NCBI GenBank assembly: GCA_030523555.1
Contig: JAUNIH010000014.1
Location: 1-33,524, forward strand
DNA: 33,524 nt
Direction: 5' to 3'
Origin: Erysipelotrichaceae bacterium
GTDB lineage: Bacteria > Bacillota_I > Bacilli_A > Erysipelotrichales > Erysipelotrichaceae
The stretch's first letter is position 1. The number at the start of each line of letters is the position of its first letter. Shown here in pieces: positions 6,126 to 9,889 of this stretch. Both the position numbers and the translations under genes were made by a program. Below the pieces are notes generated by a model. The model did not search any database, had not been told where the DNA came from, and worked only from the letters and a program-made list of their open reading frames with translations.

Positions 6126-8843
6126 TTACTGAGCTTTGTTGTGGCTTCTTCTGATAAACTTTCCAAGTTCAAATACAGGGAAAGTAGATAAGGCAAGAAG
6201 TACACAGATAATAAGTTCATTCATCTGGAAGGTGCCAGGTACAATATCAAATACCTGACATAATCCAGGAACATAGATAGCAGCTAAAGTAATCGCAACA
6301 GTAATGACGGTTGAACCTACAAGCCACCAGTTCATATTGTCAAACATCTCTTTGGTAAAGATGGACTTGGTCTGAGAACGCATGTTGATAGCGCAGGCAA
6401 TTTCCGCAAAGTTTGTAGTAAGGAAAGCCATAGCCATCGCATTTACACAGGCATCTGAACCAAAGAAACCATTTAATGAACCTGTTTCCAGATAGAAACC
6501 GATGAAGTATGCAGCAAGTTCAATAATCGCAAGATAAATACCCTGCCATACCATATCTACACCTGCACCATTGGAGAAGATGCCGTCACTTGATTTACGA
6601 GGTTTACGGTTCATGACATCACCTTCGGCTTTTTCCATACCGAGTGATAAACCTGGAAGTGAGTCGGTTACCATGTTGATCCACAACAGATGAACAGGAG
6701 TAAGAATTGTAAAGTTGAGTAATGATGCCACAAACATGATTATGACTTCACATAAGTTGGTAGATAACTGGAACTGAATAACCTTACATACGTTATCAAA
6801 GATTTTTCTTCCTTCTTCTACCGCATTGACGATAGTCGCAAAGTTATCATCTGCCAGTACCATATCCGCAACAGACTTTGTAACATCTGTACCGGTAATA
6901 CCCATACCGATACCGATATCGGCAGCCTTGATTGATGGCGCATCGTTTACACCATCACCGGTCATGGCTGTAACCATGCCTTTAGCCTTCCATGCATTGA
7001 CAATCTTAGTCTTATGTTCAGGCTGAACACGCGCGTAAACGCTGTATTTAGGCACGATATCCAGCATTTCTTCATCTGTATATTTATCAAGTTCATGACC
7101 TTCAATAGCCATGGATTCATCACTGATGATACCTAAGTCCTTACCAATGGCGATAGCTGTATCCTTATGGTCGCCGGTAATCATAACCGGAGTGATACCA
7201 GCTTCACGACACTTGGAAATCGCATCATATACTTCAGGACGGCAAGGGTCAATCATACCCACAATACCGATGAAGATAAGATTATTTTCAAGATCTTCAG
7301 GTTCGTTGGATTCAGGTTTTGTATCATAGATCTTATATGCTGCACAAAGAACTCTTAATGCCTTATCAGCGAATTCCTTGTTCTTTTTCATGATCTGATC
7401 TTTTAGATCAGAAGTCATTTTAACTGTACCGTTATCATCAAGATATTCAGTACATAAGTCAAGCATTACATCCAAAGCACCCTTGGTATACTGAATGTAT
7501 TTGCCATCAAGTGGATGAACAGTAGACATCATCTTTCTGTTTGAATCAAAAGGTGCTTCACCTACACGTGGTTCTTTTTCCTTAAGTTCATACTTAGGTA
7601 AACCGAGTTTATTGGCGTAATTGACTAATGCACATTCAGTTGGTTCACCATCAGAGAATTCTTCACCAGGTTTGATTTCCGCATCTGAACATAAAGCCAT
7701 GGCCTTAGCCAGAAGATTCTTATCGGTAGTGAATTCATCTACGACAGTCATCTTGTTCTGGGTTAAAGTACCAGTCTTATCAGAACAGATAACATTTGTA
7801 CAGCCCAGTGTTTCTACAGCTGTAAGCTTTCTTATTAAAGCCTGACGCTTGGCCATAGAAGATACACCAAGAGAAAGGATAATTGTAACAACTGCAGGCA
7901 ATCCTTCAGGAATAGCGGCAACCGCTAAGGCGATCGCAGCGATAAAAGTATCAAGCGCAACAGATCCTAATAAGCTAAATGAGAAGCCATCAGCTGTAAA
8001 GAACATCTTTTCAACCAGACCTACCACAAATACCAGTACACAGATTCCTCCAACCAGTTTGGTCAGGAATTCAGACAGTTCAGCCATCTTCTTCTGTAAT
8101 GGTGTAAGTTCATCTTCAGCCTGATTTAAGGCATCAGCGATTCTGCCCATTTCAGTATCCATACCACACGCTACAACAACCGCCTTACCTCTGCCATAAA
8201 CGATAGTCGAACCGTTATAGACCATATTCTTACGGTCACCTAATGTAATATCATCCTTTGATTCTTCGAGCATCAGTACATCAATGATTTTATTGACAGG
8301 TACTGATTCACCGGTTAAGGCTGCTTCTTCAGCTTTCAATGAATGGGATTCCAGAATTCTGCAGTCAGCAGGAACGGTATCACCGGCCTCAAACAGAATC
8401 ACATCACCTACGACTATATCTTCTGATTTGACTACTTTAACTTCGCCATCTCTTAAAACTCTTGAAGTAGAAGCGGTCATCTGCATCAGAGCTTCCATAG
8501 CACCTTCAGCTTTTGATTCCTGAATCAGGGACATAATGGTATTGATTATAACAACTACCAGAATGACTATAACATCCGCAAATTCTGACAGCTTGAAGCC
8601 TTCAGACATTGATAAGACATTTACCACTGCCTGTAAAGCTGCAGCTACCAGCAGCATAATAATCATCGGATCGGATATAGATCCGATAAATTTTTCAAAT
8701 AAAGTTTCTTTTTCAGCTTCCTTAAGTTTGTTCTTGCCGTTTTTCTCTAATCGGTCTGATGCTTCTTTACTGCTGAGACCATCTACACCTGAATCAACGG
8801 ATTTCAGAACATCTTGGCTGTCTTCCAGATAAAATTTCTCCAT
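6126..8843 (-). CDS. P2-type cation-transporting ATPase (Ca2+/Mn2+ exporter)
   Basis: Membrane pump of 905 residues that couples ATP hydrolysis to cation export. Visible motifs: actuator T-G-E-S (177-180), M4 ion site P-E-G-L (312-315), phosphorylation D-K-T-G-T (355-359), M-T-G-D-G-V-N-D-A-P hinge, and M6 N-M-V-T-D-S-L-P. This places it in the PMR1/SERCA/PMCA-like P2 group, annotated as calcium ATPase. The Mn2+ riboswitch in its leader argues that Mn2+ is the physiological substrate or a co-substrate, as for yoaB/mgtA-type pumps under the same riboswitch class. The ATG at 8843 is chosen: AAAGGA sits 7 nt upstream. In-frame starts at 8873 and 8930 lie within the riboswitch terminator and antiterminator and are not credible. 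Monocistronic, closed by its own terminator. Confidence 0.93.
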   Translation of the reverse strand: MEKFYLEDSQDVLKSVDSGVDGLSSKEASDRLEKNGKNKLKEAEKETLFEKFIGSISDPMIIMLLVAAALQAVVNVLSMSEGFKLSEFADVIVILVVVIINTIMSLIQESKAEGAMEALMQMTASTSRVLRDGEVKVVKSEDIVVGDVILFEAGDTVPADCRILESHSLKAEEAALTGESVPVNKIIDVLMLEESKDDITLGDRKNMVYNGSTIVYGRGKAVVVACGMDTEMGRIADALNQAEDELTPLQKKMAELSEFLTKLVGGICVLVFVVGLVEKMFFTADGFSFSLLGSVALDTFIAAIALAVAAIPEGLPAVVTIILSLGVSSMAKRQALIRKLTAVETLGCTNVICSDKTGTLTQNKMTVVDEFTTDKNLLAKAMALCSDAEIKPGEEFSDGEPTECALVNYANKLGLPKYELKEKEPRVGEAPFDSNRKMMSTVHPLDGKYIQYTKGALDVMLDLCTEYLDDNGTVKMTSDLKDQIMKKNKEFADKALRVLCAAYKIYDTKPESNEPEDLENNLIFIGIVGMIDPCRPEVYDAISKCREAGITPVMITGDHKDTAIAIGKDLGIISDESMAIEGHELDKYTDEEMLDIVPKYSVYARVQPEHKTKIVNAWKAKGMVTAMTGDGVNDAPSIKAADIGIGMGITGTDVTKSVADMVLADDNFATIVNAVEEGRKIFDNVCKVIQFQLSTNLCEVIIMFVASLLNFTILTPVHLLWINMVTDSLPGLSLGMEKAEGDVMNRKPRKSSDGIFSNGAGVDMVWQGIYLAIIELAAYFIGFYLETGSLNGFFGSDACVNAMAMAFLTTNFAEIACAINMRSQTKSIFTKEMFDNMNWWLVGSTVITVAITLAAIYVPGLCQVFDIVPGTFQMNELIICVLLALSTFPVFELGKFIRRSHNKAQ

Positions 8844-8857
8844 ATATTTTCCTTTCT

Positions 8858-8886
8858 CAAAATAAAAACCCATGTCAATACATGGG
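8858..8886 (-). terminator. Riboswitch-controlled intrinsic terminator
   Basis: On the minus strand CCCATGT-attg-ACATGGG is followed by TTTTTATTTT, 15 nt before the ATPase start codon. Its 5' arm (with the preceding pairs) can instead pair with TACATGGG at 8914-8907, forming an antiterminator. Confidence 0.87.
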
Positions 8887-9014
8887 TATTCTTCTAAAGA
8901 TATCTGCCCATGTAGAACTAAAAAAGTCATACATGAGTCTCGTTTTTTAAGACAAACCAGGTTTTACCCGGGTTGTTGGCTTGTCACGCTAGTGCGAAAA
9001 CTACTCCCTCACAA
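8858..9014 (-). promoter_or_regulatory. yybP-ykoY family Mn2+ riboswitch with expression platform
   Basis: Read on the minus strand. The class core G-G-A-G-U-A-G is at 9007-9001 and C-G-A-G-A at 8942-8938. P1 forms between GUGAG (9012-9008) and CUCAU (8937-8933). Inside are a CGC-acta-GCG hairpin and a long arm GACAA...UUGUC capped by CCGGGU-aaa-ACCUGG. The platform has four strands: CUCAUGUA (P1 3' arm, 8937-8930), UACAUGGG (8914-8907), CCCAUGUA (8886-8879) and ACAUGGG (8875-8869). With P1 formed (Mn2+ bound) strand 2 is free to pair with strand 3 and blocks the terminator. Without Mn2+ strand 1 can pair with strand 2, and 3 with 4 makes the terminator. The family is known as an Mn2+ ON switch; the fit supports that. 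Confidence 0.88.
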
Positions 9015-9049
9015 GAGATATCTTACTATAAATATATAATCTTTTCAAA

Positions 9050-9055
9050 TAAAAT
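9050..9055 (+). promoter_or_regulatory. Candidate -10 of the radical SAM gene, predicted leaderless
   Basis: TAAAAT at 9050-9055 is followed by ATAGTT and the ATG at 9062. The spacing and sequence nearly repeat the rnr start (TAAAAT-TTAGTT-ATG). No ribosome site and no clear -35 are visible. The gap 8931-9061 to the divergent ATPase is otherwise filled by the riboswitch aptamer and its AT-rich promoter region. Confidence 0.45.
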
Positions 9056-9061
9056 ATAGTT

Positions 9062-9889
9062 ATGAAACGTATCTATCTGGAAATTACCAATGCCTGCAAT
9101 CTCAACTGTTCTTTCTGCACAAATTCCAAGGGAAAGAGCTTTATGTCATTGAAAGATATCGATAAGTGCCTGAAAGATATTAAACCGGTATGTGATTATA
9201 TATATCTTCATATTCTCGGTGAACCTTTACTTCATCCTGATTTTGAAAGAATACTTGATCTTCTGGATGAACATGACCTTAAACTGCAGCTTGTCACCAA
9301 CGGTACACTCTTACATAAATATCCAGATATCCTTAATCATAAATGTATGCGAAAACTTTCCATCTCTGTCCACAGTATCAACAATCACCCCGTAGACGAT
9401 ATCTATTTTGATACCCTAAAGAATCTCATCGAAAACAGTAATAACTCAACTATTGAACTGCGTTTCTATGACCATGAAAACCTTGATAAAAAAATCAATA
9501 ATTTTCTAGACGAACTTAGAAGCGCATATAATGTGACTTCAACCAGAAGAAATGATTCCTATAAACTGAAAGACAATGTCTATATCTATTTCCAGAAACT
9601 TTTTAGGTGGCCGAATATCAATGATGAAGTGATTGGCTATAAAGGCAAATGTCATGGGGGTAGGGATATGCTGGCGATTAATTCCGATATGGATGTAACA
9701 CTCTGCTGTCTTGATCCATATGCACACAATAAATTAGGCAATCTGAAAGAAAACTCATTATCAGAAATAATGAGTTCAGAAGAATATAAAGAAATAATAA
9801 GTAATTTCCGTAACGGTAAAATTATTAAGGAATTATGTGCTAAATGTTCCTACCGTTTAAGGTTTGATGGTAAATCCTTGAAAGAATAA
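9062..9889 (+). CDS. Radical SAM/SPASM domain protein
   Basis: A 275-residue radical SAM enzyme. C12-x3-C16-x2-C19 binds the 4Fe-4S cluster, I-L-G-E-P-L-L-H-P is the SAM-contact GEP-like motif, and V-T-N-G-T-L-L is the usual third strand. The C-terminal 80 residues carry cysteines in a SPASM-like pattern: C-H-G-G, then C-C-L-D, then C-A-K-C, with L-G-N-L-K-E-N-S-L-S-E-I-M between, as in SPASM proteins. It therefore likely holds at least one auxiliary Fe-S cluster. No precursor peptide or partner maturase gene is adjacent, so the substrate is unknown. It is divergent from the Mn2+-regulated ATPase and its last 50 bp overlap the opposing SPOUT-like gene. It could be a general SPASM enzyme of unknown substrate. 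Confidence 0.82.
   Translation: MKRIYLEITNACNLNCSFCTNSKGKSFMSLKDIDKCLKDIKPVCDYIYLHILGEPLLHPDFERILDLLDEHDLKLQLVTNGTLLHKYPDILNHKCMRKLSISVHSINNHPVDDIYFDTLKNLIENSNNSTIELRFYDHENLDKKINNFLDELRSAYNVTSTRRNDSYKLKDNVYIYFQKLFRWPNINDEVIGYKGKCHGGRDMLAINSDMDVTLCCLDPYAHNKLGNLKENSLSEIMSSEEYKEIISNFRNGKIIKELCAKCSYRLRFDGKSLKE

Follow-up and report, generated by a model that had tools for sequence, protein, structure and literature searches.

Mn2+ riboswitches in front of P-type ATPase genes are already documented in Lactococcus lactis, Streptococcus pneumoniae and Clostridioides difficile. The yoaB leader of L. lactis is an ON switch of transcription with a P1.1 switch helix and an L1/L3 core, followed by a P-type ATPase gene (PMC11087558, PMC9190785), and the 3' arm of its P1.1 lies within the terminator stem in a two-strand arrangement (PMC11087558). 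In S. pneumoniae, mgtA can be likened to the present locus by its description as a Mn-sensing yybP-ykoY leader that activates a P-type Mn/Ca ATPase (Martin et al. 2019, as cited in PMC11434433 and PMC9331361). The Mn riboswitch and P-type ATPase of C. difficile CD2503 represent the same gene arrangement in a different family, and the ATPase has been treated in review as an orthologue of the L. lactis one (PMC11477304). For the mntP leader of Escherichia coli, translational control has been described (PMC11647493). In the class as a whole, P1.1 stabilised by Mn2+ is the established determinant of the ON state (PMC6754395, PMC11087558).

The locus analysed here lies in a stretch of 33,524 nucleotides from an Erysipelotrichaceae bacterium of the gut, which is called the window throughout, and it is an ordinary, well-supported member of this group. 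It is very probable that its leader is a transcriptional ON switch of the yybP-ykoY Mn2+ class working through a relay of four strands (A to D), and that the pump encoded behind it is most likely a Mn2+ exporter, possibly of Ca2+ too, acting alongside MntP. The proposed control is thus transcriptional, unlike that of E. coli mntP, and in contrast to L. lactis a B:C antiterminator is placed between strand A and the terminator, which makes four strands instead of two.

The leader and its aptamer

The aptamer and the four-strand terminator platform occupy positions 8859-9015 on the minus strand, in the intergenic region between the gene of a P2-type Ca/Mn-like ATPase, which they precede, and a divergent radical SAM/SPASM gene (9062-9889, plus strand). 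The first-pass annotation had listed the motifs GGAGUAG and CGAGA and the four switch strands without giving a strand; all of them are present, and they belong to the minus strand (Table 1). The longest open reading frame of the ATPase starts at ATG 8930, inside strand A. This start is probably wrong, as the homologues and the ribosome-binding site favour ATG 8843, and an automatic gene call at ATG 8930 would mask the leader. The promoter boxes were not significant as pattern matches compared to shuffles, and a -10 box resembling TAAAAT or TATGAT recurs at the same place in relatives. Some 14 bases separate the pump's -35 box from the radical SAM/SPASM start codon (9043-9062), leaving a very short control region common to the two genes.

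Table 1. Features of the leader and the pump gene, with positions in the window.
Feature	Position	Strand	Basis
-35 box TTGAAA of the leader promoter	9043..9048	-	pattern scan; 17-nt spacing to TAAGAT
-10 box TAAGAT	9020..9025	-	pattern scan and recurrence in relatives
P1.1 switch helix, 5' arm UGUGAG	9008..9013	-	pairs with 8932-8937 (CUCAUG of strand A); 5 inner positions are conserved pairs
GGAGUAG: L1 5' strand (GGAGUA) and first P1.2 base	9001..9007	-	GGAGUA invariant in 56/56 aligned leaders
P1.2, 5' arm GUUU	8998..9001	-	pairs with 8942-8945; both-sided changes in 3/4 pairs
P2 hairpin CGC-ACUA-GCG	8987..8996	-	56-leader comparative structure
P3.1, 5' arm GACAAGCCA	8977..8985	-	9 pairs, both-sided changes in 8, 56 leaders
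L3 metal-site loop ACAACCCG	8969..8976	-	contains A8974, invariant in 56/56
P3.2 GGU-AAA-ACC	8960..8968	-	56-leader comparative structure
P3.1, 3' arm UGGUUUGUC	8951..8959	-	56-leader comparative structure
P1.2, 3' arm AAAC	8942..8945	-	56-leader comparative structure
CGAGA motif	8942-8938	-	sequence
L1 3' strand GAGA	8938..8941	-	AGA invariant in 56/56
Strand A CUCAUGUA: P1.1 3' arm and 5' arm of the anti-antiterminator A:B	8930..8937	-	complementarity in leader comparison
Strand B UACAUGGG: partner A (OFF) or C (ON)	8907..8914	-	complementarity in leader comparison
Strand C CCCAUGUA: partner B (antiterminator) or D (terminator)	8879..8886	-	complementarity in leader comparison
Strand D ACAUGGG (8875-8869) and U tract UUUUUAUUUU (8868-8859): 3' half of the intrinsic terminator	8859..8875	-	terminator scan
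Ribosome-binding-site-like GAAAGG	8851..8856	-	sequence
P2-type cation ATPase, 905 aa from ATG 8843	6126..8843	-	Pfam E1-E2_ATPase, Cation_ATPase_C/N

Upstream of the ATPase homologues, GGAGUAG and a GAGA-type motif recur about 70 bases apart, and within the genus both stand at a near-constant distance from the start codon. The alignment of 56 distinct leaders of these homologues (A1) has GGAGUA, AGA, and the C and CA of CAACA as invariant positions. A structure of P1.1, P1.2, P2, P3.1 and P3.2 was drawn on A1 by hand and compared with 500 shuffles and with slid versions of itself. It paired 89.1% of the cells, against 77.4 +/- 0.6 in the shuffles (none of the 500 as high) and 23-44% when slid; double changes were found in 21 of 25 pairs, and there were 178 double-change cells compared to 57 in the shuffles. 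The shuffle tests are inflated by kinship among the sequences, which the slid controls retain. The P1 helix of the first-pass annotation was recovered as UGUGAG pairing with CUCAUG of strand A, with both-sided changes in four of the five P1.1 pairs across the 56 leaders. The fold of the leader taken singly lies 3.1 sd below its own shuffles (0/200 as good), and since its minimum-energy form mis-pairs P3 it was replaced by the comparative structure.

The aptamer thus has the L1 consensus of the class (GGAGUA...GAGA between P1.1 and P1.2), the P1, P2 and P3 helices of the four-way junction, with covariation, and an L3 in which the discriminator adenosine is A8974 (alignment column 56). In our alignment this base corresponds to A48 of Xanthomonas oryzae and A41 of L. 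lactis; the role of the L3 discriminator adenosine in the class has been described (PMC6754395). Counting against the assignment, column 60 of L3 holds C in the window and U in 30 of the 56 leaders, and it may be the position of the metal-contacting U52 of X. oryzae (PMC6754395).

Genes behind the aptamer and the substrate of the pump

A covariance model (R1) was built from A1. Its score on the window, 85.6 bits (E 2e-18), is high by construction because the window is a training member. In the whole genome of the window R1 gave exactly two strong matches, of 85.6 and 81.3 bits, the next having an E of 1.6, and the second copy lies 5' of an MntP gene (PF02659, E 1.1e-40) and carries the same four strands. 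The aptamer is therefore placed, as in the class generally, 5' of metal-efflux genes, here a P2 ATPase and MntP in one genome. Matches to R1 were found in the genomes of 82 of 101 relatives and at 64 of 77 named ATPase loci, some of them outside the training set, for example in Terrisporobacter (L087, L115); inspection of the homologue and R1 listings gave no adjoining R1 match for P-type ATPases of less than 40% identity. Most of the sampled copies in relatives that do not precede an ATPase precede MntP. These MntP-linked copies are the best available evidence pointing to Mn2+ as the ligand and to a role of the pump in Mn2+ export, and the ATPase and MntP copies together make a putative two-gene Mn2+ efflux regulon directly testable.

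In relatives, R1 also matched the leaders of other genes (L181, L182, L184, L185, L187, L188, L189, L157, L183, L186, L190), among them genes for flotillin (Band_7/Flot), PiT-type phosphate permeases (PHO4), Na/Ca exchangers and a CitMHS permease. No link between the aptamer and flotillin was found in the literature searched. Several of the non-ATPase leaders have A-U, not G-C, as the first pair of P1.2 (GGAGUAA...UGAGA). A further match, in a genome of the same genus (L167, G025:C162:54908-54996), lies 5' of a TetR-type regulator gene divergent from an ATPase homologue.

The pump itself is by Pfam a complete P2-type cation ATPase with the catalytic DKTGT, as in the SERCA/PMR1-like family. The best NCBIfam model was the PMR1-type TIGR01522, at 618.9 bits and below the curated cut-off of 798, so that PMR1-type is the nearest subfamily and the pump is not a TIGR01522 equivalog member. 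Both Mn2+ and Ca2+ are substrates of PMR1/SPCA pumps. The nearest solved structure is that of Listeria LMCA1, followed by SERCA and SPCA. The aligned motifs of the pump (AAIPEGLP in TM4, STNLCEV in TM5, NMVTD in TM6) retain the acidic and amide residues that serve as ligands in SERCA, and the residues of both SERCA-type metal sites in TM4-TM6 are largely present (E314, N697, E700, N724, T727 and D728, numbered in the ORF translation). The sequence of the pump would equally allow Mn2+, Ca2+ or both, and it is from the regulon and the known cases that Mn2+ export can reasonably be inferred.

It is possible, although rather unlikely in our judgement, that with the same aptamer and switch the pump carries mainly Ca2+, or both ions, Mn2+ being the signal or the aptamer responding to Ca2+ as well. 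The nearest solved relatives are Ca2+ ATPases, the residues of both metal sites are largely kept, some relatives have the aptamer 5' of Na/Ca exchangers, and in S. pneumoniae Mn/Ca sensing has been ascribed to the mgtA riboswitch, with MgtA classed as a Mn/Ca ATPase (PMC11434433). Against this, the one further strong match of the genome is found 5' of the gene of MntP, a Mn exporter, MntP also stands behind most of the sampled non-ATPase copies, and the best subfamily model is of the PMR1 type, whose pumps carry both ions.

The four-strand platform

The exclusive pairing claimed by the first-pass annotation held in the window, where A:B and B:C each form 8 pairs and C:D forms 7, all without a mismatch; since A resembles C, it is also complementary to D over 7 bases. 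The terminator scan placed a site at 8887-8868 followed by TTTTATTTTG, while shuffles yield 0.1 such sites. When the 71-base platform was shuffled with dinucleotides preserved and A fixed, the combination of A:B, B:C, C:D and a U tract was seen in none of 20,000 shuffles, compared to 2.4% for A:B alone and 8.3% for such a terminator alone. An alignment of 22 leaders (A2), consisting of 21 ATPase leaders of the genus and the mntP leader of the same genome, had strands A-D conserved in all 22: A:B was paired at 12/12 positions in 21 leaders and 11/12 in the window, B:C at 8/8 in every leader and C:D at 6/7 or more in all. For C:D, none of 500 shuffles had as many double changes.

With these pairings the switch would work as follows. 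At low Mn2+, strand A would leave P1.1 and take B once B is made, C would be left free to pair with D, and transcription would terminate just 5' of the ribosome-binding site. At high Mn2+, docking of L1 on L3 would hold P1.1, A would be unable to take B, and B:C could form before D is synthesised, allowing readthrough into the pump gene. Without P1.1, D could pair with either C or A (7 pairs), both of which would stop transcription, and only P1.1 would remove A:D. The pump would export excess Mn2+, possibly Ca2+ too, together with MntP, whose gene lies behind the second copy of the switch. The logic of OFF by default and ON with Mn2+ is inferred from the conserved exclusive pairings. In energy calculations the window hairpins had -11.3 (A:B with its inner helix), -9.6 (B:C) and -9.0 (C:D), and the whole leader -46.3 kcal/mol with A:B and C:D, -38.3 with P1.1 and C:D and -32.1 with P1.1 and B:C. 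OFF is thus the computed default, as A:B with C:D is lowest. Against the ON state at equilibrium, C:D is favoured over B:C even when P1 is forced, and therefore ON must rely on the order of co-transcriptional folding and on Mn2+ and tertiary energy absent from the model.

An improbable alternative would accept the aptamer but give a role to the A:B and C:D hairpins alone: C:D would act as a simple attenuator, and the complementarity of B to C would have come about through hairpin duplication. A and C, like B and D, are near-copies, the A:B changes in A2 are one-sided only, and C:D is computed as more stable than B:C in context. Against it, B:C is fully paired in all 22 leaders and has 6 double-change cells, a number reached by 3 of 500 shuffles. 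In 10 of the 22 leaders there is one position at which C retains its pair with B while mismatching D, which suggests that B:C is under selection. In other genera B:C persists although the strand sequences differ, for example CUGUGCA/UGCACAG in L025 and UUGUCUAUGC/GCAUAGAUGA in L028.

The four-strand reading extends to relatives to different degrees. The relay logic was present in 20/20 distinct leaders of the genus (1.7 expected from shuffles) and in 16 of 40 other leaders (2.0 expected), 16 distant leaders had only the two-strand form with A in the terminator stem, and 8 leaders were left unclassified. The wider proposal, in which our confidence is evenly balanced, is that Mn2+ riboswitches of the Erysipelotrichaceae lineage and related Clostridia use a four-strand relay with an anti-antiterminator, in which D could terminate by pairing with either C or A and is freed only by P1.1. 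Unlike the two-strand L. lactis switch, this architecture would persist as the sequences composing it change, and it would be common to two genes of one genome. No description of such a platform was found in the literature searched, although one may exist. The conserved relay offers a natural contrast to L. lactis when asking how a single aptamer can be coupled to different platforms.

The Rfam model and the class assignment

The RF00080 search, which the first-pass annotation had named as a check and whose failure it would have taken as refuting, gave no match in the window at the gathering score (45), and none was obtained in a permissive search (E<=10) of stretches of 301 and 121 bases or in the whole genome of the window. 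This silence does not refute the assignment because RF00080 is insensitive: with RF00080 (Rfam 15) in the same tool, the proven mntP leader of E. coli scored 40.9 bits, below the gathering score, and the proven E. coli alx leader was not listed at E<=1 (loci L117 1774-1870 and L118 3874-4003). The printed consensus of RF00080 lacks P1.1 and leaves a long stretch unpaired at its 3' side, where P1.1 and GAGA would be expected, which suggests the reason for the insensitivity. The threshold is a property of the model and does not define the class.

R1 found the E. coli mntP leader, which is outside the model, at E 3.7e-4, and within 9 kb around E. coli alx its top site was the alx leader, although weak (E 0.12). 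All six RF00080 matches in relatives, each below threshold, coincide with R1 matches (G031:C165, G066:C1, G051:C11, G100:C20, G086:C79 and G055:C43), and the one in G051 is directly 5' of an ATPase homologue. The yybP-ykoY assignment of the first-pass annotation is thus borne out by covariation in 56 leaders, the recovery of E. coli mntP, the overlap with RF00080 and the mntP copy in the same genome. It is supported that the aptamer is an additional member of the class, on comparative evidence stronger than an Rfam match. That the leader is no metal riboswitch at all but a chance resemblance or a class-like, protein-bound attenuator agrees with the lack of an Rfam match in the window, yet it is extremely improbable given the covariation, the recovery of E. 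coli mntP by R1, the coincidence of R1 with sub-threshold RF00080 matches, and a platform that 20,000 shuffles failed to reproduce.

Automatic pipelines would miss this annotation, Rfam being silent on the leader and the pump being named a calcium ATPase. Among other metal riboswitches, NiCo/czcD and M-box gave no matches, and the leader has the core motifs of yybP-ykoY; the permissive Rfam search returned only chance-level matches to other families. One family matched in the window was RF02617 (SSRC10, 'Streptococcus sRNA 10') at 8917-9013, the consensus of which, AGGGAGuag...AGCgaGaCcuGu...aCagGuCucUUU, resembles a yybP-ykoY aptamer with a terminator, and judged by this likeness what is listed as an 'sRNA' could be the terminated leader of a Mn riboswitch.
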